Shown piece after piece: positions 1,138 to 24,621 of a DNA stretch of 44,932 bases (position 1 is the stretch's first letter; every line of letters begins with the position of its first letter). The translations under genes and the position numbers were made by a program. Source of the DNA: a virus. A model generated the notes under the pieces. That model made no database searches. It was not told the origin of the DNA and worked only from the letters and a program-made list of their open reading frames with translations. The DNA lies in IMG/VR virus record IMGVR_UViG_3300030329_004544, positions 1 through 44,932 of that record, one strand, 5' to 3'.

Positions 1138-1431
1138 ATGAGTGAACGAAAGAAGAAGCGTAAGTCAGGTGCAGGGCGTAAGAAAGGAAGCGTTAGCTTC
1201 TGCATGGTTCCCCTCACGGAATTAACTGCCAAGTTGCCTAGTGGTGCTATTATCGTAGTGAGTAGGAAGTTCTGCGAATCTATGGGCATCGAAGGGCAAC
1301 CTGTTGTATCGACCCCAACGATGATGATGCCCCTTGCTACTGCTGCCAAGGCTAATGCCGTACAGGTTACTGACTTGAATGAAAGTAACAAAGAAGAACC
1401 CGCGCCAGACTTTAGCGTTGACAACTGGTAG
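1138..1431 (+). CDS. hypothetical protein with basic GRKKG N-terminus
   Basis: A 97-residue protein of unknown family. The first 20 residues are strongly basic (RKKKRKSGAGRKKGS, reminiscent of an AT-hook or DNA-contacting tail), the middle is hydrophobic and probably beta-rich (AIIVVSRKF), and the tail is acidic. The promoter ends 6 nt before the ATG. The promoter for the next gene (TTGACA at 1418) is embedded in this gene's last codons, so the two are adjacent but independently transcribed. Confidence 0.7.
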   Translation: MSERKKKRKSGAGRKKGSVSFCMVPLTELTAKLPSGAIIVVSRKFCESMGIEGQPVVSTPTMMMPLATAAKANAVQVTDLNESNKEEPAPDFSVDNW

Positions 1432-3039: not shown

Positions 3040-3054
3040 CTTTTTGAATTTTAT

Positions 3055-3091
3055 GCTTGACACCGCCGGGACCGGTCCCGCGACGTCAAGC
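3055..3091 (+). repeat. composite palindrome E1 (GGGACCGGTCCC core)
   Basis: GCTTGACA ... GGGACCGGTCCC (3068-3079) ... GTCAAGC, followed by seven T. It could form a long stem-loop and act as a terminator on the plus strand. Confidence 0.75.
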
Positions 3092-3882: not shown

Positions 3883-3934
3883 AGGCGGGCCCGGGGTTTT
3901 TATGTGTTTGACCCGGGTCCGCCTCCTTTTTTTT
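3883..3934 (+). terminator. intrinsic terminator
   Basis: A 13-bp stem (3883-3895 with 3912-3924, one G-U pair) is followed by a run of T at 3926-3934. It ends the 3162-3868 operon. The gap 3869-4245 holds this terminator, palindrome E2, a DnaA-box-like site and the next promoter, but no gene. Confidence 0.9.
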
Positions 3935-3972
3935 GCTTGACACGTCGGGACCGGTCCCGCGACCTGTCAAGC
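3935..3972 (+). repeat. composite palindrome E2
   Basis: GCTTGACA ... GGGACCGGTCCC (3947-3958) ... TGTCAAGC, then seven T. It lies directly behind the terminator. Confidence 0.8.
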
Positions 3973-3977
3973 TTTTT

Positions 3978-3986
3978 TTATTCACA
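3978..3986 (+). other. DnaA-box-like site
   Basis: TTATTCACA, followed after three bases by TGTGAA in the opposite orientation. Confidence 0.5.
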
Positions 3987-4171
3987 GCCTGTGAAGATTT
4001 CGTATTTTGGCCGAATTTCTCACCGGAGAAAACACCCCTTTTTACGAAACTTGCCGATCACTTTTTGCGTTTTTTGGTTGGCAAATGGATTTGTCGCTCA
4101 GAAATGAGCGGCTAATTAACGGCAACAATTAGGGGATAAAAAAAAGATGCTTGTGACGTGCATTTTATGCT

Positions 4172-5226: not shown

Positions 5227-5245
5227 GCTATTGGGGAAACTTTTT

Positions 5246-5283
5246 GCTTGACACCCGCGGGACCGGTCCCGCCCTTGTCAAGC
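5246..5283 (+). repeat. composite palindrome E3
   Basis: GCTTGACA ... GGGACCGGTCCC (5259-5270) ... TGTCAAGC. There is no T-run behind it, so it does not look like a simple terminator. Confidence 0.75.
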
Positions 5284-5315
5284 CTAAACTTAATTAAAAA
5301 AAAGTAAAAAAAGAC

Positions 5316-7463: not shown

Positions 7464-7491
7464 ATTTTTTTCATAATGTGAACAGTTTTTT

Positions 7492-7527
7492 CTTGACATC
7501 GCCGGGACCGGTCCCGCCCGTGTCAAG
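7492..7527 (+). repeat. composite palindrome E5
   Basis: CTTGACA ... GGGACCGGTCCC (7504-7515) ... TGTCAAG. An A-rich tract follows, not T. Confidence 0.8.
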
Positions 7528-7552
7528 CCCAAAAGAAAAAAAAGTTTTTTAT

Positions 7553-7590
7553 AGGTGGGACTGCGGATGTCCCACCTCGTGTGCTATACT
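7553..7590 (+). promoter_or_regulatory. operator-promoter copy 1 (perfect palindrome)
   Basis: AGGTGGGAC (7553-7561), 7-bp spacer, GTCCCACCT (7569-7577): a perfect 9-bp inverted repeat. An extended -10, TGC-TATACT (7585-7590), lies 6 nt before the ATG. There is no TTGACA; the palindrome occupies the -35 zone. Confidence 0.85.
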
Positions 7591-7596
7591 ACTCGC

Positions 7597-7737
7597 ATGA
7601 AAACAATTAAGAACGATACGAAAAACAAAGACAAGAAACACTGGATTGGACGAACAGGCCCAAAGGTCAAGAATAACATAGCGCCAAAGCGTTTCCACCC
7701 ACGACGCAAGTATTGCGAGGCGAATCAAGAAAATTAA
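7597..7737 (+). CDS. small highly basic protein
   Basis: A 46-residue lysine/arginine-rich peptide (MKTIKNDTKNKDKKHWIGRT ... KRFHPRRKYCEANQEN), probably nucleic-acid or ribosome binding by charge alone. An ATG inside the operator at 7568 is in frame but lies upstream of the -10 box and would not be transcribed from this promoter, so I place the start at 7597. It is the first of five genes sharing the same operator. Confidence 0.65.
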   Translation: MKTIKNDTKNKDKKHWIGRTGPKVKNNIAPKRFHPRRKYCEANQEN

Positions 7738-7739
7738 TC

Positions 7740-7776
7740 GGTAGGACTACGGATGTCCCACCCTCTGTGCTATACT
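7740..7776 (+). promoter_or_regulatory. operator-promoter copy 2
   Basis: GGTAGGAC (7740-7747), 7-bp spacer, GTCCCACC (7755-7762), extended -10 TGC-TATACT (7771-7776), 6 nt to ATGATG. Confidence 0.85.
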
Positions 7777-7782
7777 AATCAC

Positions 7783-7956
7783 ATGATGAAAATGAAGAAC
7801 ACGAACACCACCGCCGAGAACGTTGCCCTTGCTTGCAAGGAGAAAACCAAGCATGAAGCGAATTTGCGTTTCCGTCAGCTTGAACACGCTGCCCAGCGTG
7901 GCACAACCAATCGAAGCTGGGCCAAGCTAGAAATTGCTTGGGAACTAAGTCACTAA
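7783..7956 (+). CDS. small hypothetical protein of operator regulon
   Basis: A 57-residue, mixed-charge helical peptide (MMKMKNTNTTAENVALACKE ... WAKLEIAWELSH). It has no recognisable family. It starts ATGATGAAAATGAA, the same 14 bases as the next operator-controlled gene, although the proteins diverge after MMKM. A more distal in-frame ATG falls in the operator and is rejected. Confidence 0.65.
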   Translation: MMKMKNTNTTAENVALACKEKTKHEANLRFRQLEHAAQRGTTNRSWAKLEIAWELSH

Positions 7957-8046
7957 GCGAGTAGCTCGCACACCCATCTACGGGGGACACCGTAGACCGT
8001 AGACTGGCAGGAAGCCGTAAGACCAGCACGGAGACAAAAAAAGTTA
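7957..8046 (+). other. hairpin-rich spacer
   Basis: Between two operator-controlled genes lie GCGAG/CTCGC, TCTACGG/CCGTAGA (7977-7983 with 7990-7996) and CTGG/CCAG stems, then seven A. It may be a structured 3' UTR; no T-tract supports termination. Confidence 0.35.
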
Positions 8047-8049
8047 ATC

Positions 8050-8086
8050 GGTAGGACTACAGATGTCCCACCCTCTATGGTATACT
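8050..8086 (+). promoter_or_regulatory. operator-promoter copy 3
   Basis: GGTAGGAC (8050-8057), 7-bp spacer TACAGAT, GTCCCACC (8065-8072), extended -10 TGG-TATACT (8081-8086), 6 nt to ATGATG. Confidence 0.85.
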
Positions 8087-8092
8087 AATCAC

Positions 8093-8311
8093 ATGATGAA
8101 AATGAACAAAGAGATCGAGAAGCTGATGCTTCACAACGTCAACACCCACACGTTTTGGGTAGCTGCTCAACGCAATTTCATCTTTGAATTGAACAACCAA
8201 TTCGAGATGCACACCACGCCAGAGCTTAACGAAAAGTTTTGCCTCTTGTGGGAAAAGCTTAAGGGTGAACCAACCACCATCGACGGAACATTCAGGAGCG
8301 AAAAAAAGTAA
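8093..8311 (+). CDS. small hypothetical protein of operator regulon
   Basis: A 72-residue protein, mainly helical (NKEIEKLMLHNVNTHTFWVA, FIFELNNQFEMHTTPELNEK). No family was recognised. It is predicted to be leaderless, beginning ATGATG. It shares its regulatory region with the genes at 7597, 7783, 11692 and 12926 but shows no obvious sequence similarity to their products, so the shared element, not the proteins, defines the group. Confidence 0.65.
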   Translation: MMKMNKEIEKLMLHNVNTHTFWVAAQRNFIFELNNQFEMHTTPELNEKFCLLWEKLKGEPTTIDGTFRSEKK

Positions 8312-8319
8312 AAAAAAGC

Positions 8320-8348
8320 TTGCACAGACACAGGTTCTGTGTTATATT
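8320..8348 (+). promoter_or_regulatory. leaderless promoter with palindromic spacer
   Basis: TTGCAC (8320-8325), 17-bp spacer, TATATT (8343-8348), 6 nt to ATGATG. The spacer contains ACACAG-GTT-CTGTGT, a likely operator distinct from the GGTRGGAC family. Confidence 0.75.
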
Positions 8349-8354
8349 CTTAAC

Positions 8355-8519
8355 ATGATGAACGACATGATGCCAACCATAGAAGAGACCATCACCCCCG
8401 ACATCCAAGCCCAGCTTGAGCATGAGGAGTGGGAGCGGGGCAACGAAGAGCGGGAACGCTGGGACGCCGTTGAGGCTACTCATGGGCCGCTGTTTGATAG
8501 CATGGTCTGGAAGGACTAA
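8355..8519 (+). CDS. small very acidic protein
   Basis: A 54-residue, strongly acidic and helical peptide (MPTIEETITPDIQAQLEHEE, GNEERERWDAVEATHGP). Small acidic phage proteins often act as inhibitors or DNA mimics, but nothing specific supports that here. The start at 8355 is fixed by the promoter; the frame extends upstream to 8265 through the A-rich promoter tract, which would be untranscribed. Confidence 0.65.
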   Translation: MMNDMMPTIEETITPDIQAQLEHEEWERGNEERERWDAVEATHGPLFDSMVWKD

Positions 8520-8531
8520 CATCATGGGCCA

Positions 8532-8555
8532 GCGCGATGGCCTTGGAAATCGCGC
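8532..8555 (+). other. 7-bp hairpin between small genes
   Basis: GCGCGAT (8532-8538) pairs with ATCGCGC (8549-8555), 15 nt before the ATG at 8571. There is no T-run, so this could be an mRNA processing or stability element, or an operator. Confidence 0.45.
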
Positions 8556-8570
8556 CCTTATTATATCATT

Positions 8571-8792
8571 ATGATTGAATTAGGTATGGAGGTTGAAAAC
8601 CTCAACGGCTACCTCGGAGTAGTCGCCGCCTCGCCGCGCAACGGCAAGTGGCTCGTCCTCACGGATGATGGTCGCACCGTGCGCGTACGCGAGGAGGACA
8701 TTCGCGAGTATGATGACGAGTACCAACAAGAGTGGTGCGGTTATCACTCCGACGCCTACCTCAAGTGGGTAGAGAAGCGCGAGCTTCTGTAA
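8571..8792 (+). CDS. small SH3/KOW-like hypothetical protein
   Basis: A 73-residue protein. Its pattern (MEVENLNGYLGVVAASPRNG, WLVLTDDGRTVRVREEDIRE) of short strands with conserved glycines resembles small SH3-like or KOW-like barrels, which often bind nucleic acid or protein. This is a fold impression only. No good -35 was found, and the hairpin just upstream may control it. An efficient terminator follows. Confidence 0.65.
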   Translation: MIELGMEVENLNGYLGVVAASPRNGKWLVLTDDGRTVRVREEDIREYDDEYQQEWCGYHSDAYLKWVEKRELL

Positions 8793-8798
8793 ACACAA

Positions 8799-8821
8799 CC
8801 CGCGAAAGCGGGCTTTTTTTT
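8799..8821 (+). terminator. intrinsic terminator with GAAA loop
   Basis: CCCGC-GAAA-GCGGG (8799-8812) followed by C and eight T. Confidence 0.95.
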
Positions 8822-8842
8822 GTACAATTTTTATATTTTTTT

Positions 8843-8878
8843 CTTGACAGCCGCGGGACCGGTCCCGGCCCTGTCAAG
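8843..8878 (+). repeat. composite palindrome E6
   Basis: CTTGACAG ... GGGACCGGTCCC (8855-8866) ... CTGTCAAG, then seven T. Confidence 0.8.
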
Positions 8879-8884
8879 CTTTTT

Positions 8885-8893
8885 TTATGCACA
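8885..8893 (+). other. DnaA-box-like site
   Basis: TTATGCACA; TGTGAATAT follows a few bases later on the other strand (8 of 9 matches). Confidence 0.45.
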
Positions 8894-8930
8894 GGGTGTG
8901 AATATTTTTTTCATTTTGGGCGTTTTTTTT

Positions 8931-8959
8931 GTTGCGTTTTTCTGCTCAACCTGTATAAT
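8931..8959 (+). promoter_or_regulatory. leaderless promoter for ArfA-like peptide
   Basis: Perfect TATAAT (8954-8959) 6 nt before the ATG at 8966. The -35 is weak (TTGCGT at 8932, 16-bp spacer). Confidence 0.7.
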
Positions 8960-8965
8960 GCTCGC

Positions 8966-9103
8966 ATGAAGATTAAGGCAAGAGTAAGCAAACAGGGTTT
9001 CATGGGTAGCGCATCCCGTGAACACAGAGTGAAAAAGGGCAAAGGCTCTTACACTCGCAAACAAAAACACAAAAGGGGTCATTATGCGCTTGACTCCAAT
9101 TAG
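8966..9103 (+). CDS. ArfA-like alternative ribosome-rescue peptide
   Basis: This 45-residue basic peptide contains KKGKGSYTRKQKHKRG at residues 23-38. It matches the conserved KKGKGSYxRKxKH signature of ArfA, which enters the mRNA channel of ribosomes stalled without a stop codon and recruits RF2. The N-terminal half is shorter than cellular ArfA, and the hydrophobic C-terminal tail of E. coli ArfA is absent, as in the active truncated form. It is monocistronic with its own leaderless promoter. The assignment rests on one short motif, so a generic basic peptide cannot be excluded. Confidence 0.65.
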   Translation: MKIKARVSKQGFMGSASREHRVKKGKGSYTRKQKHKRGHYALDSN

Positions 9104-9118
9104 GAAAAGGCTTATTAT
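9090..9118 (+). promoter_or_regulatory. sigma-70 promoter inside end of ArfA-like gene
   Basis: TTGACT (9090-9095), 17-bp spacer, TATTAT (9113-9118), 7 nt to ATGATG at 9126. It lies largely within the ArfA-like coding sequence. Confidence 0.7.
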
Positions 9119-9125
9119 TATGAAG

Positions 9126-9554
9126 ATGATGGACGATATAAAACTCACCTACATTCCAGACGCTCACGGCTGGATAAAAGTATATTTGCAAGCACCCAAC
9201 GCGGAACTTGCCGAAGCGTGGTTCAATTCATTTTGGAATCACAACGCCACCAGCCAAGACGAGCCAGAGTGGATATTTGAAAACGAGTTAGCGTTTTGCA
9301 GCACATGGGACAAGCTAACCAACGCCATGAATGATATTTTCCTTTTCATTCTTCTTAATGATGATGAAGATGCTTTCAAAAACGAGGAAGGCGGTGCGAT
9401 GCCGTTTGCCAAGGAACTAGCCAAGGCCAAGATTGCAGAGATGGAAAAGAAAGATTCATCCATGCGTTACGGTCGCCAAGGCCACGTTTACACGATGGGC
9501 GAAGTTTACACCAACGAAGAAAAGTCATTTTCTTCTGGAACGTGTGACGTTTAA
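9126..9554 (+). CDS. hypothetical acidic protein
   Basis: A 142-residue protein of unknown family, acidic and tryptophan-rich (GWIKVYLQAPNAELAEAWF, DEPEWIFENELAFCSTW). In-frame starts at 9084 and 9120 exist, but the promoter places transcription at about 9125, making the ATGATG at 9126 the natural leaderless start. That start gives the Met-Met N terminus seen in sister cassettes. Confidence 0.65.
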   Translation: MMDDIKLTYIPDAHGWIKVYLQAPNAELAEAWFNSFWNHNATSQDEPEWIFENELAFCSTWDKLTNAMNDIFLFILLNDDEDAFKNEEGGAMPFAKELAKAKIAEMEKKDSSMRYGRQGHVYTMGEVYTNEEKSFSSGTCDV

Positions 9555-9556
9555 GC

Positions 9557-9585
9557 TTGACCTTTAACCCCAGAAAGTATAGAAT
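9557..9585 (+). promoter_or_regulatory. leaderless promoter for GP88-like gene
   Basis: TTGACC (9557-9562), 17-bp spacer, TAGAAT (9580-9585), 6 nt to ATG. TTTAACCC follows the -35, as at 6307. Confidence 0.75.
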
Positions 9586-9591
9586 CTAGTC

Positions 9592-10305
9592 ATGTTGAAA
9601 TTCAAAGATGCAAACGGCAAACTCAAGAAGATGGCAAAGAAGCTTGGCGTTAAGCTTAAAACCTTCACTCTCCCTGCGGGCTATACTTGCGGCGGTGCGA
9701 AGGATTGCCTCGCGTATGCCGACAGGAAAACGGGCAAAGTGAGAGACGGCAAAGAAACACAATTCCGTTGCTTCATGGCATCGCTCGAAGCCACGTTTCC
9801 AAGTCTCCGCGCTATGGTGTGGGAGAATTACGAGCAGTTGCAAGCGGCACTAAAAAACGGTGTTGATGCTTGCGCGGATTTGATTCACAACAGCTTGCCA
9901 AAGAAGTTTGACGTAATGCGCGTTCACGTTGGCGGCGATTACTTCAGCAAGGAGTATTTGCAAGCGTGGATTGAAGTTGCCAAGCGTAATCCCGACAAGG
10001 TGTTTTACTCTTACAGCAAGAGCTTGCATTTGTTCAAGCAATTTGCCTTACCCGAAAACCTTGTGTTGACTGCCTCCCGTGGTGGCAAGTACGATGATTT
10101 GATTGACCTCCACGCATGGAAAGAGGCGATTGTTGTATTCAGTGAAGAGGAAGCGGAAGAGCTTGACTTGGAAATTGACCACGACGATTCACACGCAGCG
10201 TTTGGCGCGGAGAATTTCGCGTTGCTCATTCACGGCACACAGCCAGCAGGGAGTGCGGCAAGCGAAGCCTTAAAAGTGATAAAGAAAAAGGCGAGGACTG
10301 CGTGA
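9592..10305 (+). CDS. GP88-family phage protein (cysteine-containing)
   Basis: This 237-residue protein resembles the phage gene-product-88 family. It has an early TFTLPAGYTCGGAKDCLAYA segment, TQFRCFMASLEA, a central MRVHVGGDYFSKEYLQAW and an FYSYSKS motif. The paired cysteines (C-x5-C plus a third in FRCF) could bind metal or an iron-sulfur cluster. The family's biochemical role is not established to my knowledge. The stop overlaps the start of a 19-residue membrane peptide (TGATG). Confidence 0.6.
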   Translation: MLKFKDANGKLKKMAKKLGVKLKTFTLPAGYTCGGAKDCLAYADRKTGKVRDGKETQFRCFMASLEATFPSLRAMVWENYEQLQAALKNGVDACADLIHNSLPKKFDVMRVHVGGDYFSKEYLQAWIEVAKRNPDKVFYSYSKSLHLFKQFALPENLVLTASRGGKYDDLIDLHAWKEAIVVFSEEEAEELDLEIDHDDSHAAFGAENFALLIHGTQPAGSAASEALKVIKKKARTA

Positions 10306-10364
10306 TGGAGTTTCTCGTCCTTGTAGCTGTCGGGTTGTATTTCGGCGCGAAACTTAGTCGATAA
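10305..10364 (+). CDS. 19-residue membrane micro-peptide
   Basis: MEFLVLVAVGLYFGAKLSR is a single hydrophobic helix with a positive C terminus. The ATG overlaps the TGA of the preceding gene, the classic arrangement for translational coupling. A similar micro-ORF lies at 12436. It is too short for statistical support, so this is tentative. Confidence 0.35.
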   Translation: MEFLVLVAVGLYFGAKLSR

Positions 10365-10380
10365 AAAATGATATTTTTTG

Positions 10381-10422
10381 CTTGACAGCCGGCGGGACCG
10401 GTCCCGCTGAGACTGAGTCTCA
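10381..10422 (+). repeat. composite palindrome E7 with GAGACT palindrome
   Basis: CTTGACA (10381-10387), GGGACCGGTCCC (10394-10405), then TGAGACTGAGTCTCA (10408-10422) in place of the TGTCAAG arm. Confidence 0.75.
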
Positions 10423-10429
10423 TTAAGAT

Positions 10430-10438
10430 TGTGAATAA
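10430..10438 (-). other. DnaA-box-like site
   Basis: TGTGAATAA followed by CTTTTTT. Confidence 0.5.
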
Positions 10439-10456
10439 CTTTTTTCAGATTTCCCC

Positions 10457-10485
10457 TTGACAAATGGGCAAACCTGTGTTATAGT
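10457..10485 (+). promoter_or_regulatory. leaderless promoter for HAD gene
   Basis: Perfect TTGACA (10457-10462), 17-bp spacer, TATAGT (10480-10485), 6 nt to ATGATG. Confidence 0.85.
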
Positions 10486-10491
10486 ATTTAC

Positions 10492-10932
10492 ATGATGAAC
10501 GAGAAATTGAATCCACTTTTCGATTTAGACGGAACCCTTATCCGTGAGGAGCGCGGCTCTGACCGTCTATTTGACTTTCTGAAACCTCACGCCATTCTTA
10601 ACCTCACAGAGGATGACCTTACTCCTCTCGGTGTTTTGGTTAGAGACTCTGGCAAAGAATTTGACATTCTTACCGCTCGCGGCCCAGAGAATGCACAGTT
10701 CATCCGCATAGCCCTTGAAGCTCTCGGATTCAACGTTGGCCGAATCGTCACCGTAGGCGTAGACGTTAACGAGCCAAAGGATTGGGCCAAGGTTAGCAGC
10801 AAACGAGTTGCAGCCAAGAAAATCAGAATTGCCAAATTCGTCCAAAGGAAATTGGTTGACAACGACCCTAGGAATCTGGTAGGATTAGGCGAGTTAGGAG
10901 AGCTAGTAGCTCAAGACCAAACGGAGTTTTAA
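10492..10932 (+). CDS. HAD-superfamily phosphatase
   Basis: A 146-residue protein with HAD motif I at FDLDGTL (nucleophile Asp11, acid/base Asp13), motif II in DILTARGP, a candidate lysine in the KKIRIAKF region and a terminal acidic motif VDNDP. HAD enzymes hydrolyse phosphate esters. In phages they serve as polynucleotide 3'-phosphatases or nucleotidases, and the LTARG context fits a small nucleotide or polynucleotide phosphatase. No kinase domain is fused. It heads a two-gene unit with the 10934 gene, one base after its stop. Confidence 0.8.
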   Translation: MMNEKLNPLFDLDGTLIREERGSDRLFDFLKPHAILNLTEDDLTPLGVLVRDSGKEFDILTARGPENAQFIRIALEALGFNVGRIVTVGVDVNEPKDWAKVSSKRVAAKKIRIAKFVQRKLVDNDPRNLVGLGELGELVAQDQTEF

Positions 10933-10933
10933 G

Positions 10934-11176
10934 ATGAGAATAAGGATTGAACCAAACGAACAAGCAAGCCAGCGAACTAAAAACCGTATCAAAGAACGCG
11001 GCCCGTGGTTTGTTATAGAACGTAAGCACGACAGCCGAACCCTTGGCCTTATCGGTAAAGGCGACACGGAAAGCTGGCTAGTCGCAGAAGTAGATTTTCC
11101 AGATGGTGACAGATGGACAGGCTGGCTGCCCGCTAATGAATTTAATGTTGTTGAAACTGAAGGATTTTGGTCTTGA
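10934..11176 (+). CDS. small hypothetical protein downstream of HAD gene
   Basis: An 80-residue protein of unknown family, probably a small beta-rich domain (PWFVIERKHDSRTLGLIGKG, WLVAEVDFPDGDRWTGWLPA). The ATG lies two bases after the HAD stop codon (TAAG-ATG), so translation is probably coupled. The last codons contain the -35 of the next promoter. Confidence 0.7.
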   Translation: MRIRIEPNEQASQRTKNRIKERGPWFVIERKHDSRTLGLIGKGDTESWLVAEVDFPDGDRWTGWLPANEFNVVETEGFWS

Positions 11177-11201
11177 CATTTAACCAGAAAACCCATATAC
11201 T
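11173..11201 (+). promoter_or_regulatory. sigma-70 promoter for membrane-peptide pair
   Basis: Perfect TTGACA (11173-11178), 17-bp spacer, TATACT (11196-11201), 8 nt to ATGATG at 11210. TTTAACC follows the -35. Confidence 0.85.
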
Positions 11202-11209
11202 ATAAACAG

Positions 11210-11323
11210 ATGATGAGAACACTATTGAACCTATTGGATGAGTTGTGCTGGCCTTTGATTATGCTTGTCGGCATATTCTTGGGAGTATTTCACATAATCC
11301 TTCCTTTAATTATTTGGCTTTAA
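11210..11323 (+). CDS. 37-residue membrane peptide
   Basis: MMRTLLNLLDELCWPLIMLV begins a peptide with one long hydrophobic segment (residues 14-37) and almost no charged residues after position 11. A strong promoter ending 8 nt upstream supports its reality despite the small size. It could be a membrane-active regulator or a holin-like peptide; no family was recognised. Confidence 0.6.
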   Translation: MMRTLLNLLDELCWPLIMLVGIFLGVFHIILPLIIWL

Positions 11324-11337
11324 CAAAAAACAAACCT

Positions 11338-11454
11338 ATGCAAACTAAAACTAAAAAAGATTGGACGCAAACTCTGTTTGTGGGGAACATCGCAACCGTA
11401 ACATTTATTGTCGGCGTAATCGTCGGTCAATTTGTCAAAGTCATTATTATGTGA
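11338..11454 (+). CDS. 38-residue membrane peptide
   Basis: MQTKTKKDWTQTLFVGNIAT is followed by a transmembrane helix (VTFIVGVIVGQFVKVIIM). The basic N terminus predicts a cytoplasmic N terminus. It follows the other membrane peptide by 14 nt and probably shares its transcript. The frame is open upstream to 11245, but that part overlaps the previous gene in another frame and is rejected. Confidence 0.55.
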   Translation: MQTKTKKDWTQTLFVGNIATVTFIVGVIVGQFVKVIIM

Positions 11455-11462
11455 TTTTGATA

Positions 11463-11565
11463 GGGGGTCTGAAAACCTACGCTTGAGCCTTTGAGGTCTG
11501 ACCTGTAGCGAAACAGCGTGACGACTACGACCCCCACCCCCCTAGGGGTACCCCCCGGGGGGGTC
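11463..11565 (+). other. GC-rich palindromic spacer, possible structured RNA
   Basis: GGGGGTC (11463-11469) pairs with GACCCCC (11529-11535), closing a 73-nt segment with internal complementary stretches. It is followed by tandem GC palindromes (CCCCTAGGGG and ACCCCCCGGGGGGGT). A similar CCCCTAGGGGGTACCCC tract is at 12501-12517. The function is unknown. Confidence 0.4.
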
Positions 11566-11576
11566 TAAACTTTTTG

Positions 11577-11622
11577 CTTGACAGGCGGCGGGACCGGTCC
11601 CGCTTATTGCGACTCGGTCTCA
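11577..11622 (+). repeat. composite palindrome E8
   Basis: CTTGACA (11577-11583), GGGACCGGTCCC (11590-11601), then an imperfect GCGACTCGGTCTC palindrome and a T-run. Confidence 0.75.
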
Positions 11623-11648
11623 GTAAAACTTTTTTTAATTATCTTATG

Positions 11649-11685
11649 GGTAGGACTGCGGATGTCCCACCCTCTGTGCTATACT
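11649..11685 (+). promoter_or_regulatory. operator-promoter copy 4
   Basis: GGTAGGAC (11649-11656), TGCGGAT, GTCCCACC (11664-11671), extended -10 TGC-TATACT (11680-11685), 6 nt to ATGATG. It lies 3.5 kb from copies 1-3. Confidence 0.85.
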
Positions 11686-11691
11686 GTACGC

Positions 11692-11895
11692 ATGATGATT
11701 AAAGAACATAAGAAACCAACATACACCCTTTGGAACGGTGTGCAACTCATCGCCACCTACCCACACACACGTGAGGGCATGAACGCAGCCATGCTACGTG
11801 CATCAGAGCTAGGCATAGGGGCCAAGCTATACTCATCACGTGATGACCTAGTGTGGAGCGCACGCATGGCAGATGACATGATGGATTGTGAATAA
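11692..11895 (+). CDS. small hypothetical protein of operator regulon
   Basis: A 67-residue protein of unknown family (YTLWNGVQLIATYPHTREGM, MLRASELGIGAKLYSSRDDL), with a compact alpha/beta look. The start is set by the promoter; the frame continues upstream through the operator to 11578. Its last three codons (TGT GAA TAA) form a DnaA-box-like site, so that site is partly coding. Confidence 0.65.
   Translation: MMIKEHKKPTYTLWNGVQLIATYPHTREGMNAAMLRASELGIGAKLYSSRDDLVWSARMADDMMDCE
11887..11895 (-). other. DnaA-box-like site overlapping stop codon
   Basis: TGTGAATAA spans the last codons and stop of the 11692 gene. Confidence 0.45.
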
Positions 11896-11912
11896 CTTTC
11901 TTAAAAAACCGC

Positions 11913-11941
11913 TTGACTTTTTAGCATAATTGAGGTATAGT
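11913..11941 (+). promoter_or_regulatory. sigma-70 promoter for 11951 gene
   Basis: TTGACT (11913-11918), 17-bp spacer, TATAGT (11936-11941). Six nt later comes ATAATG, where sister promoters have ATGATG, so the leader would be three nucleotides. Confidence 0.8.
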
Positions 11942-11950
11942 ATTAACATA

Positions 11951-12223
11951 ATGAAGAACGAAATGACAGTAGAACAAGAAGCTCAAATCCTCCTCAACAA
12001 CGAGGTGCGTGTGACATTCGCCAAAAGCCAGTTATTCGGCCAAACAGGTATCGTCGAGGCCATCATGGCAGACGGTCGCACGTTAGACATTAAGATGTCT
12101 GACGGCAAGAACGCCTTTCTTGATGTCACCTTTGTTGGTGAAATCCAAGAGCGTACACAGTACGCCAAGACTTCTCAAAGTCTCGGCCCAATCGCTAACA
12201 GTGTTGTAAAGTCTACCCTTTAA
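11951..12223 (+). CDS. small hypothetical protein, possible SH3-like fold
   Basis: A 90-residue protein of unknown family. The central part (VRVTFAKSQLFGQTGIVEAI, RTLDIKMSDGKNAFLDVTFV) alternates strands and glycines in the way of small SH3-like domains, similar in style to the 8571 product. The first codon of the expected ATGATG is ATA, so only the second ATG is used. The stop is one base before the next start. Confidence 0.7.
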   Translation: MKNEMTVEQEAQILLNNEVRVTFAKSQLFGQTGIVEAIMADGRTLDIKMSDGKNAFLDVTFVGEIQERTQYAKTSQSLGPIANSVVKSTL

Positions 12224-12224
12224 G

Positions 12225-12434
12225 ATGATAACAAACAAACAACCCACCGTTGAGCTTCATGACGGTGAATTTATGACCATCGACGGAGTGCTGCACTCTA
12301 TTATCAGCCACCATTCATTTGATGATTTTGGTGCTACGTTGGACACTTTCAAAGTGATTAACTACGCAGGATTGATTCGGGAGATTTATTCTTTTGATGA
12401 GTGCGAAACATTCACCTTTGACAACGGAGAATAG
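12225..12434 (+). CDS. small acidic hypothetical protein
   Basis: A 69-residue, acidic, probably beta-rich protein (VELHDGEFMTIDGVLHSIIS, LIREIYSFDECETFTFDNGE). No family was recognised. It follows the 11951 gene by one base and precedes a membrane micro-ORF by one base, forming a tight three-gene unit. Confidence 0.65.
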   Translation: MITNKQPTVELHDGEFMTIDGVLHSIISHHSFDDFGATLDTFKVINYAGLIREIYSFDECETFTFDNGE

Positions 12435-12435
12435 A

Positions 12436-12507
12436 ATGGAAGTATTTATTATTTTTATTTTGATATGGTTTTTCGTGTGGTGTGCCATCGGCACCCTGAC
12501 CCCCTAG
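12436..12507 (+). CDS. 23-residue membrane micro-peptide
   Basis: MEVFIIFILIWFFVWCAIGT, then LTP: a single very hydrophobic helix. It starts one base after the stop of the 12225 gene, so translational coupling is plausible, and it parallels the 19-residue peptide at 10305. The coding end runs into a CCCCTAGGGG palindrome. Confidence 0.35.
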   Translation: MEVFIIFILIWFFVWCAIGTLTP

Positions 12508-12527
12508 GGGGTACCCCACCCCCCTTA

Positions 12528-12580
12528 TTGAGACCCAGTCTCATCGGGACCGGTCCCGCTTATTGAGACTAAGTCTCATT
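12528..12580 (+). repeat. composite palindrome E9 flanked by two GAGACT palindromes
   Basis: GAGACCCAGTCTC (12530-12542), GGGACCGGTCCC (12546-12557) and GAGACTAAGTCTC (12565-12577) in series. No CTTGACA arm is present. Confidence 0.75.
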
Positions 12581-12585
12581 CCAAT

Positions 12586-12594
12586 TGTGAATAA
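12586..12594 (-). other. DnaA-box-like site
   Basis: TGTGAATAA followed by CTTTTT. Confidence 0.5.
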
Positions 12595-12611
12595 CTTTTT
12601 CATTTTAGGGG

Positions 12612-12640
12612 TTGACTTTTTGTCATTTTTGTGGCATACT
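12612..12640 (+). promoter_or_regulatory. sigma-70 promoter for 12681 gene
   Basis: TTGACT (12612-12617), 17-bp spacer, CATACT (12635-12640). The predicted start near 12647 gives a purine-rich leader of about 34 nt. Confidence 0.7.
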
Positions 12641-12680
12641 ATATGTATTGAGAGTGAGAGACACAAAGAAAGAAACAAAG

Positions 12681-12881
12681 ATGAGAAACCTACCAACACT
12701 GCCTGAAGCCACTTGGGAAATTACTTTTGACAACGACAGCACGATGTTCATCGCTGGTCGTGATGAAGAACACGCTCGCCGTGTAGTGGAAAACAACAAA
12801 GGCTTCAGCCGCTGGCGTCGTACCGAGGATGAGCCTTGGCAGATTCGCACCATAAAAAAGATTGAAAGAGTTACTTGGTAG
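12681..12881 (+). CDS. small hypothetical protein
   Basis: A 66-residue protein rich in tryptophan and charged residues (EATWEITFDNDSTMFIAGRD, GFSRWRRTEDEPWQIRTIKK). The pattern recalls small phage proteins that turn up next to regulatory genes, but no family is recognised. The stop codon lies inside the fifth operator copy, so a repressor bound there would sit over this gene's 3' end. Confidence 0.65.
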   Translation: MRNLPTLPEATWEITFDNDSTMFIAGRDEEHARRVVENNKGFSRWRRTEDEPWQIRTIKKIERVTW

Positions 12882-12913
12882 GACTACAGATGTCCCACCC
12901 TATGTGATATACT
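12877..12913 (+). promoter_or_regulatory. operator-promoter copy 5
   Basis: GGTAGGAC (12877-12884), TACAGAT, GTCCCACC (12892-12899), extended -10 TGA-TATACT (12908-12913). The ATG is 12 nt away, leaving a six-base leader, the only copy not strictly leaderless. Confidence 0.85.
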
Positions 12914-12925
12914 AGACGCAGTTAA

Positions 12926-13297
12926 ATGATTATGAAAGAACAAAACACTATGAAAGCAAACAACCTAATCCTTGGAGCTATCTACATCAACGCAACCACA
13001 GGCGAGCCTTGCCGCTTGGTTAACATCGTATCGTGCCAAGGCGTTTGGCTTGAGTCTTACGATGGCCAAGGTTACGGTGAACTCGTTAGCTTTGACGATT
13101 GCCACTATGCAAGCGGTGATGAGGTGCAAGACTTCCTCGATGACCTCGCCGTGTACGAAGCAAACAAGAAAGCGGATTCCCATAAAGAACTACCCGCTCC
13201 TCCTGCTGTTATCCGCATTCCTAATTATGACAAGATGTGGAACGTCCAAGGTTATTACAACGACAACGAAGGCAACGACATTCGTTGCAGAGACTAA
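12926..13297 (+). CDS. hypothetical protein of operator regulon
   Basis: At 123 residues this is the largest of the five operator-controlled products. Its first half looks like a beta-barrel (NLILGAIYINATTGEPCRLV, GVWLESYDGQGYGELVSFDD), followed by an acidic helix and a proline-rich linker. No family was recognised. Alternative in-frame ATGs at 12932 and 12950 exist; 12926 is nearest the predicted transcription start. Confidence 0.65.
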   Translation: MIMKEQNTMKANNLILGAIYINATTGEPCRLVNIVSCQGVWLESYDGQGYGELVSFDDCHYASGDEVQDFLDDLAVYEANKKADSHKELPAPPAVIRIPNYDKMWNVQGYYNDNEGNDIRCRD

Positions 13298-23539: not shown

Positions 23540-23899
23540 ATGCTAAAAATATATTGTCAAAAATGCGGTGGCCTAAATGCTTACGTTTCGGAAAAGCCTA
23601 AGTTTTGCCAGAAATGCGGTAATAACTTTGCGTCTATAGGCGCGCCTAAAAAGCTAGAAAGTCAAGCTAGAGCTCTGGTTGAAGAAAGTGACGATATGGA
23701 AATTTTTAACATCCCCGATATTGACGGTTTGTTAGTGGACATCGAAATTGCTGGTCCCAGTAGTAGCAAAGTCGGCGACATAGCGGGTACGAATGAAGAG
23801 GGATTAAAGTTAGACAGGGGACAATTAACCCCAGAGCAAAAAGCTCTAGACCCAATTGAAGAATTAAAAAGAGAAGGTAGTTCTCTACGACAAAAATGA
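23540..23899 (+). CDS. zinc-ribbon domain protein
   Basis: A 119-residue protein whose first 30 residues form a zinc ribbon (YCQKCGG ... KFCQKCGNNF, two CxxCG knuckles), followed by an acidic, low-complexity tail. Such ribbons mediate protein or nucleic-acid contacts. Its stop overlaps the next gene's ATG (ATGA), and that gene encodes a sigma-like protein, so a partnership in transcription is possible but unproven. Confidence 0.75.
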   Translation: MLKIYCQKCGGLNAYVSEKPKFCQKCGNNFASIGAPKKLESQARALVEESDDMEIFNIPDIDGLLVDIEIAGPSSSKVGDIAGTNEEGLKLDRGQLTPEQKALDPIEELKREGSSLRQK

Positions 23900-24621
23900 A
23901 CAAAAAGAAGCCTAGTAAAAAAACTAGCGCGAGCACCAGAAAAAAGGAATTAAGGTTTGAGGATTGTTACGACATAATTAACGAGGAAATAGCAAAAAGG
24001 AGAGGAAAATGGAATTTATCAGTCATATCATGGATGGATTTTGAAGATGTATCACAAATATTAAGAATACATATATATAAAAAGTGGCATCTTTACGATC
24101 AGTCTAAAAATTTAAAACCATGGATCAGGACGATAATAGGGAATCAAATTAAGAATTTAATTAGAAATAATTATACTAATTTTGTTAAGCCCTGCGTTAA
24201 GTGTGCCGCCGCCGTTGAAGAAACTGGATGCAACCTTTATGGTAAGCAATCCAGCGATTGTCCATTATACAAAAACTGGGAAAAAAATAAAAAAAGCGGT
24301 TATCAAGCTAAAATGCCTCTATCTCTTGAAAATCACCCACAAGAAGTTTATTGTTTACCTAGTAGTAATGAATTTAATTTAGAAATATCGATAAAAAATT
24401 TAAGCAAAAAAATGAAAGAGGTTTTAAAGCCTCATGAATGGAAAATTTATTGTTATTTATATGTAGATAATTTATCTGATCTAGAAGTTGCCAAAAAGAT
24501 GGGTTACAAAACTTCAGAAAAAAATAGATCGCCGGGGTATAAACAAATTAAAAATGTTAAAAAGAAGATTATCTCAAAAGCGAAAGAATGCATAGAGAAT
24601 GATGAGATAGATATATTTTAA
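23896..24621 (+). CDS. putative phage sigma factor (ECF-like)
   Basis: A 241-residue basic protein with a sigma region-2-like segment: MDFEDVSQILRIHIYKKWHL followed by KNLKPWIRTIIGNQIKNLIR, the aromatic/basic helix of ECF sigma factors. Region-4-like helices lie near the C terminus (LSDLEVAKKMGYK). Between them is a cysteine-containing insert with four to five Cys (residues about 97-122) that could bind zinc. Phage late genes are often read by such factors. The recurrent GTGTAAT motif is its candidate promoter. Sequence divergence is high. Confidence 0.7.
   Translation: MNKKKPSKKTSASTRKKELRFEDCYDIINEEIAKRRGKWNLSVISWMDFEDVSQILRIHIYKKWHLYDQSKNLKPWIRTIIGNQIKNLIRNNYTNFVKPCVKCAAAVEETGCNLYGKQSSDCPLYKNWEKNKKSGYQAKMPLSLENHPQEVYCLPSSNEFNLEISIKNLSKKMKEVLKPHEWKIYCYLYVDNLSDLEVAKKMGYKTSEKNRSPGYKQIKNVKKKIISKAKECIENDEIDIF

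Follow-up and report, generated by a model that had tools for sequence, protein, structure and literature searches.

Among the described systems closest to the promoters considered here, DriD of Caulobacter crescentus is a homodimeric WYL activator that is switched on by single-stranded DNA (ssDNA); sites of its consensus, ATACGAC(X)7GTCGTAT, overlap a poor -35 element at one distance from a -10 element with a conserved G-14, and DriD activates the opposite side of the divergent promoter region from which driD is transcribed (PMC12340889). In mycobacteria, PafBC acts by sigma adaptation, as a heterodimer that reads a single -26 element (PMC11804915), and the T4 middle promoters depend on MotA/AsiA, the activator being encoded by the phage (PMC2988021). 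The present analysis concerns a palindrome joined to an extended -10 element, found in five copies in IMG/VR record IMGVR_UViG_3300030329_004544 (positions 1-44,932, the whole stretch analysed, hereafter the window). The window is a phage-derived fragment, as the presence of a terminase indicates, and belongs to a clade of large marine phages with larger contigs of up to 178 kb. Based on comparison with related viruses and with bacterial chromosomes, it is likely that these phages co-opt a host ssDNA-activated, DriD-like WYL activator by means of composite promoters.

The full promoter unit consists of the palindrome GGTRGGAC-N7-GTCCYACC, a spacer of exactly 8 nt, TATACT preceded by TGN, a further 6 nt and an ATG. 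In the window it is arranged as follows.

7554-7576, plus strand: predicted activator site, copy 1, GGTGGGAC-TGCGGAT-GTCCCACC
7585-7590, plus strand: -10 element TATACT of copy 1, extended (TGC before), with ATG at 7597
7597-7737, plus strand: gene of 46 aa under copy 1, probably leaderless
7740-7762, plus strand: predicted activator site, copy 2, GGTAGGAC-TACGGAT-GTCCCACC
7771-7776, plus strand: -10 element TATACT of copy 2 (TGC), with ATG at 7783
7783-7956, plus strand: gene of 57 aa under copy 2
8050-8072, plus strand: predicted activator site, copy 3, GGTAGGAC-TACAGAT-GTCCCACC
8081-8086, plus strand: -10 element TATACT of copy 3 (TGG), with ATG at 8093
8093-8311, plus strand: gene of 72 aa under copy 3
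11649-11671, plus strand: predicted activator site, copy 4, GGTAGGAC-TGCGGAT-GTCCCACC
11680-11685, plus strand: -10 element TATACT of copy 4 (TGC), with ATG at 11692
11692-11895, plus strand: small gene under copy 4, family c57
12877-12899, plus strand: predicted activator site, copy 5, GGTAGGAC-TACAGAT-GTCCCACC
12908-12913, plus strand: -10 element TATACT of copy 5 (TGA)
12926-13297, plus strand: gene of 123 aa (family c20) under copy 5, preceded by a short leader

The five copies stand where a preliminary description of the sequence had placed them (7554, 7740, 8050, 11649 and 12877), the earlier start of copy 1 at 7553 including a ninth A-T pair. At up to 3 mismatches, the palindrome gives 10 strand-matches (5 sites) in the window versus 0.11 +/- 0.40 in shuffles, so it is far above chance. 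The arms of copy 1 are perfectly complementary, as had also been described, and those of copies 2-5 each contain one A/C mismatch (GGTA/CACC). The fixed distance to TATACT, the TGN and the lack of TTGACA were likewise confirmed in all five copies, the distance being exactly 8 nt. The interval from the -10 element to the ATG is exactly 6 nt in copies 1-4, and copy 5 has a short leader; the upstream open reading frame (ORF) 12612-12881 uses the TAG of copy 5 (12879-12881) as its stop.

The same unit recurs in related viruses. An exact scan of IMG/VR returned 81 stretches, most with the same promoter, and the motif was found in at least 45 related virus contigs, with 1 to 7 promoters per whole record; the reversed pattern, used as a control, gave no match in the 45 whole records scanned, which had been picked by the motif itself. 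When loci were re-sampled by means of the DUF932 gene found in this region, the motif was present in 17 loci, one of them new (L290), and it was absent from some relatives that possess the region (L283, L286, L287, L288, L289 and L340). Of 34 records of portal relatives, 3 gave a match at up to 3 mismatches, an unfair test because the five records inspected mostly lack the early region. The search of relatives had been set beforehand as the refuting test of the preliminary description; the motif proved to be conserved, and some near relatives have only TTGACA promoters. These comparative data, together with the rigid spacing described below, support the proposal that a single regulator governs a regulon through a palindrome standing at the -35 position. 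The exact phage promoter was not found in GTDB species genomes.

The anatomy of the unit was examined in 116 non-redundant sites from related virus contigs. The arms are near-invariant, with R at the fourth base of each half-site, the GAC-N7-GTC core is invariant or nearly so, and both palindromic half-sites are equally conserved; the arms are more conserved than the -10 element. The palindrome is followed by the 8-nt spacer and then by TGNTATACT. The first ATG, exactly 6 nt after the -10 element in 81/116 (about 70%), falls at the expected +1, which implies that the mRNAs are probably leaderless. The N7 is also constrained, mostly to N-R-C-N-R-A-T, with a purine at the second base and an [AT]T end in 116/116. 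Among 77 palindromes collected with no -10 requirement, an extended -10 element (at most 1 mismatch) lies at exactly +5 nt in 73; the remaining four comprise one (G035) in which the -10 element is nearer by 1 nt, and three unrelated sequences. The best matches to a -35 element at 16-18 bp spacing reach at most 3 of 6 positions.

This architecture bears on the possibility that the sites act as decoys, titrating the host WYL regulator and so weakening a host response, the promoter role being secondary. The near-invariant arms make a high affinity likely and WYL regulators control some defence systems; however, every window site faces a gene with exact promoter spacing, an extended -10 element and a start codon, and a contig carries just 1-7 copies, so that a decoy function is very improbable.

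The unit also behaves as a cassette. The first 6 to 8 codons are common to unrelated downstream genes (MKIKND, MIKTDMK, MMKMKN and others), which indicates that the shared cassette includes the start. At 42/78 GGTAG sites, an upstream ORF of 40 codons or more terminates at the TAG, compared to a background of 2.4% of all TAGs, and the left-right asymmetry (A in the left arm) is partly due to this overlap (GG-TAG). An RNA hairpin was rejected as the recognized form, since most left arms carry an A/C mismatch and sites overlap stop codons, both of which speak for DNA recognition. In T4-type phages, PeSL mobile regulatory cassettes provide a known precedent, in which one promoter cassette is common to, and shuffled among, unrelated small genes. 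The present cassette similarly precedes unrelated small genes; unlike PeSL, no stem-loop terminator role is seen, and the cassette takes in the start and first codons and often the stop of the preceding gene. The 8-bp inverted arms and 7-bp interval further resemble a tyrosine-recombinase core with its overlap, and a site-specific recombination core that shuffles gene cassettes would account for the first codons shared by unrelated genes. On the other hand, tyrosine recombinase/integrase (PF00589) is absent from 16 phage records and was found in 14/14 control genomes, the overlap varies between copies within one phage, the join to the -10 element is constant, and the site also adjoins a host wyl gene (see below). 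As homologous recombination can explain the sharing of cassettes, a recombination core is the least probable of the explanations considered.

In bacterial chromosomes, the exact palindrome occurs five times in 387 Verrucomicrobiota genomes (three times with the control), and in 0/395 Bacteroidota and 0/245 Marinisomatota genomes; because the raw count is hardly above the control, the argument rests on context. Two exact matches, in different genomes, lie between the gene of a WYL-domain regulator and a divergent gene of ~210 aa, and one of these two has the exact phage layout of palindrome, 8 nt, TATTCT, 6 nt and ATG. The remaining three (L354, L355 and L358) lack an evident gene context and could have arisen by chance. 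In the closest orthologs of the WYL regulator, which were picked by protein alone, the site is located in the divergent gap and oriented away from wyl in 11/11 cases, with 7-8 nt to TANNNT and then 6-9 nt to ATG. In 17 of 30 loci, the best match of a matrix built from phage sites only, with the window excluded, falls in the 300 bp upstream of the WYL gene (2.5 expected, P ~2e-11; shuffles were also run), the 30 loci being related orthologs and so not fully independent; all 17 positive loci are divergent. The asymmetry of the N7, whose [AT]T end points toward the -10 element, is present in the same orientation in 13/13 host sites compared. The identity of the phage site with the WYL-adjacent host site is well supported, and the host is probably a verrucomicrobial bacterium, the phylum assignment of the chromosomes with these sites resting on a seed metagenome-assembled genome (MAG) named 'uncultured Verrucomicrobiales'.

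Other host sites, with at most 2 mismatches, precede the genes for RmuC and for a PD-(D/E)XK AddB-like protein or adjoin that for a Y-family polymerase. These repair-gene neighbours, few cases from different genomes, fit a damage response. The gene divergent from the WYL gene encodes a protein of ~210-230 aa (L361:3035-3673, with orthologs in L393, L400, L401 and L405) and stands behind the same kind of site; it has no Pfam or NCBIfam match and is a candidate damage-response effector.

The host regulator contains HTH_11, WYL and WCX domains, and its best sequence matches in the PDB are DriD and PafBC. An AlphaFold model (predicted local distance difference test score, pLDDT, 75; predicted template modelling score, pTM, 0.46) matches full-length DriD first, followed by PafBC, CapW and BrxR, the relative domain positions in the model being uncertain because of the low pTM. 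The likeness to DriD extends from the protein, of HTH-3HB-WYL-WCX type and ~327 aa, to the DNA: both systems have a GAC-N7-GTC core palindrome, a site over a non-consensus -35 element at one fixed distance from a -10 element with G-14, a site in a divergent promoter beside the regulator gene (here in host chromosomes) and, putatively here, DNA-damage targets. Unlike in DriD, the target promoters occur also in phages, probably have leaderless starts and belong to a different phylum, and activation by ssDNA is here a prediction. PafBC shares with the present case promoters with no -35 element and, presumably, a WYL activator, an ssDNA signal and a DNA-damage response. The two differ in that both half-sites are conserved here, as for a homodimer, instead of a single -26 element.

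It is also conceivable that the same host WYL protein acts as a repressor, so that the phage genes would be silenced early and relieved when DNA ligands are sensed, as with CapW/BrxR. Some WYL proteins do repress, the site covers the -35 position, and CapW and BrxR are structural relatives of the regulator. Nevertheless, promoters with no usable -35 element (at most 3 of 6) fit a need for help, the spacing is rigid, both sequence and fold place the regulator nearest to DriD and PafBC, which are activators, and the same geometry activates in DriD. Repression is therefore unlikely, although it is the most plausible of the alternatives, and binding by the WYL protein as an activator is the reading we retain.

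Several observations weigh against co-option of the host activator. The outer half-site is GGTRG instead of the ATAC of DriD, which limits the likeness to GAC, and the distance to the -10 element exceeds that in DriD by 2 bp (13 versus 11 nt from GTC to -12, counted from the sequences). In addition, the five exact palindromes in Verrucomicrobiota are not significant on their own, 13/30 WYL orthologs, mostly distant ones, have no upstream site, and MAG contigs that encode distant relatives of the portal-like protein span several phyla and do not point to one host.

Another alternative is that a phage-encoded activator, similar to MotA of T4, binds the palindrome and gives rise to these middle promoters, in which case the site would resemble that of the host through shared ancestry or convergence. 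As in T4, a site for a factor stands in for the -35 element, ahead of an ordinary -10 element. The clade has its own sigma factors, and so controls its own transcription stages, and many conserved phage proteins have no known function. However, no match to WYL (PF13280) above the cut-off was found in 18 phage records, with 8/14 control genomes positive, and scans of conserved phage families, in which some records were incomplete, found no specific activator or small DNA-binding family that tracks the motif. Unlike the T4 case, moreover, the site matches that of a host regulator, agreeing with it in the two arms, in the tendency of the N7 and in the distance to the -10 element. A phage activator is likewise unlikely. 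Accordingly, the regulator, left as phage- or host-encoded in the preliminary description, can be narrowed toward the host WYL protein; the 'operator' of that description would probably be better called the activator site of a composite promoter.

Of the sigma-factor-like proteins detected in the phage-family scans, the window encodes a region-2 protein with a cysteine-rich insert (23896-24621), relatives encode a full sigma-70-type protein with regions 1.2, 2, 3 and 4 (L091:14426-15283), and a weaker third relative is present at G001 126228-126836. A neighbouring pair of conserved proteins, 760 and 269 aa long (L092:13241-15523 and L092:16094-16903), has no Pfam match; judged by eye, the smaller one may resemble T4 rIIB. 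Three candidate regulators were rejected. A ribbon-helix-helix regulator was represented only by weak Omega_Repress matches below the cut-off in 5/16 records; the phrog_385 'transcriptional regulator' is not universal and, by eye, is unlikely to be a site-specific regulator; and the small conserved basic protein c17 (window 1138-1431) is present also in motif-less relatives and has no PDB relative.

Under co-option of the host activator, ssDNA from phage replication or from host DNA breakdown would switch on the WYL protein, which would bind GGTRGGAC-N7-GTCCYACC as a homodimer over the -35 position. The bound activator may then anchor host RNA polymerase on extended -10 promoters with no -35 element, so that a set of small phage genes would be turned on, with mRNAs beginning at or beside the start codon (leaderless). 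A broader proposal, which in our estimate is evenly balanced, is that these apparently virulent large phages form a clade that has placed early-region genes under the host ssDNA-sensing WYL activator. A host alarm would thereby become a replication-linked switch, carried by portable promoter cassettes with a built-in start codon.

The palindrome class is one of two promoter classes, as is evident from relatives that lack the motif: L286 and L287 have many CTTGACA promoters with the same leaderless spacing. Gene families c34 and c47 are found in phages with and without the motif, and the c34 gene of the window (11930-12223) is located behind a TTGACT promoter, its homologs in relatives standing behind a promoter of the palindrome class. 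The second class, CTTGACN-N17-TANNNT, occurs in the window at 1102, 6300, 8319, 9556, 10456, 11172 and 11912 and also in relatives; it often has an ATG ~6 nt after the -10 element, which suggests that leaderless starts are a general trait of this part of the phage genomes.

The window contains further repeats. Eight copies of CGGGACCGGTCCCG (3041-3080, 3929-4000, 5232-5288, 7477-7533, 8828-8884, 10367-10406, 11563-11602 and 12545-12559) are intergenic, most of them within a larger inverted repeat CTTGACA...TGTCAAG, and are confined to the window and four relatives (G040, G010, G026 and G029). A second palindrome family, GAGACTNAGTCTC-like and often adjoining CGGGACCGGTCCCG, is found together with a repeated ATTGTGAATAACTTTTT at 10408-10421, 11608-11621 and 12529-12579. 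Near the left end (494-624), a 38-nt direct repeat that ends in CGAAATATAG is present in four imperfect copies.

LexA is a familiar regulator of prophages; no report of phage genes under a WYL activator was found in the open-access literature. If the proposed co-option is true, a non-SOS damage sensor would serve as a timing switch for phages that have no integrase, and DriD-type WYL regulation would extend to Verrucomicrobiota, with a regulon that can be read. The motif would then also offer a means of connecting unassigned marine phage contigs with their hosts.

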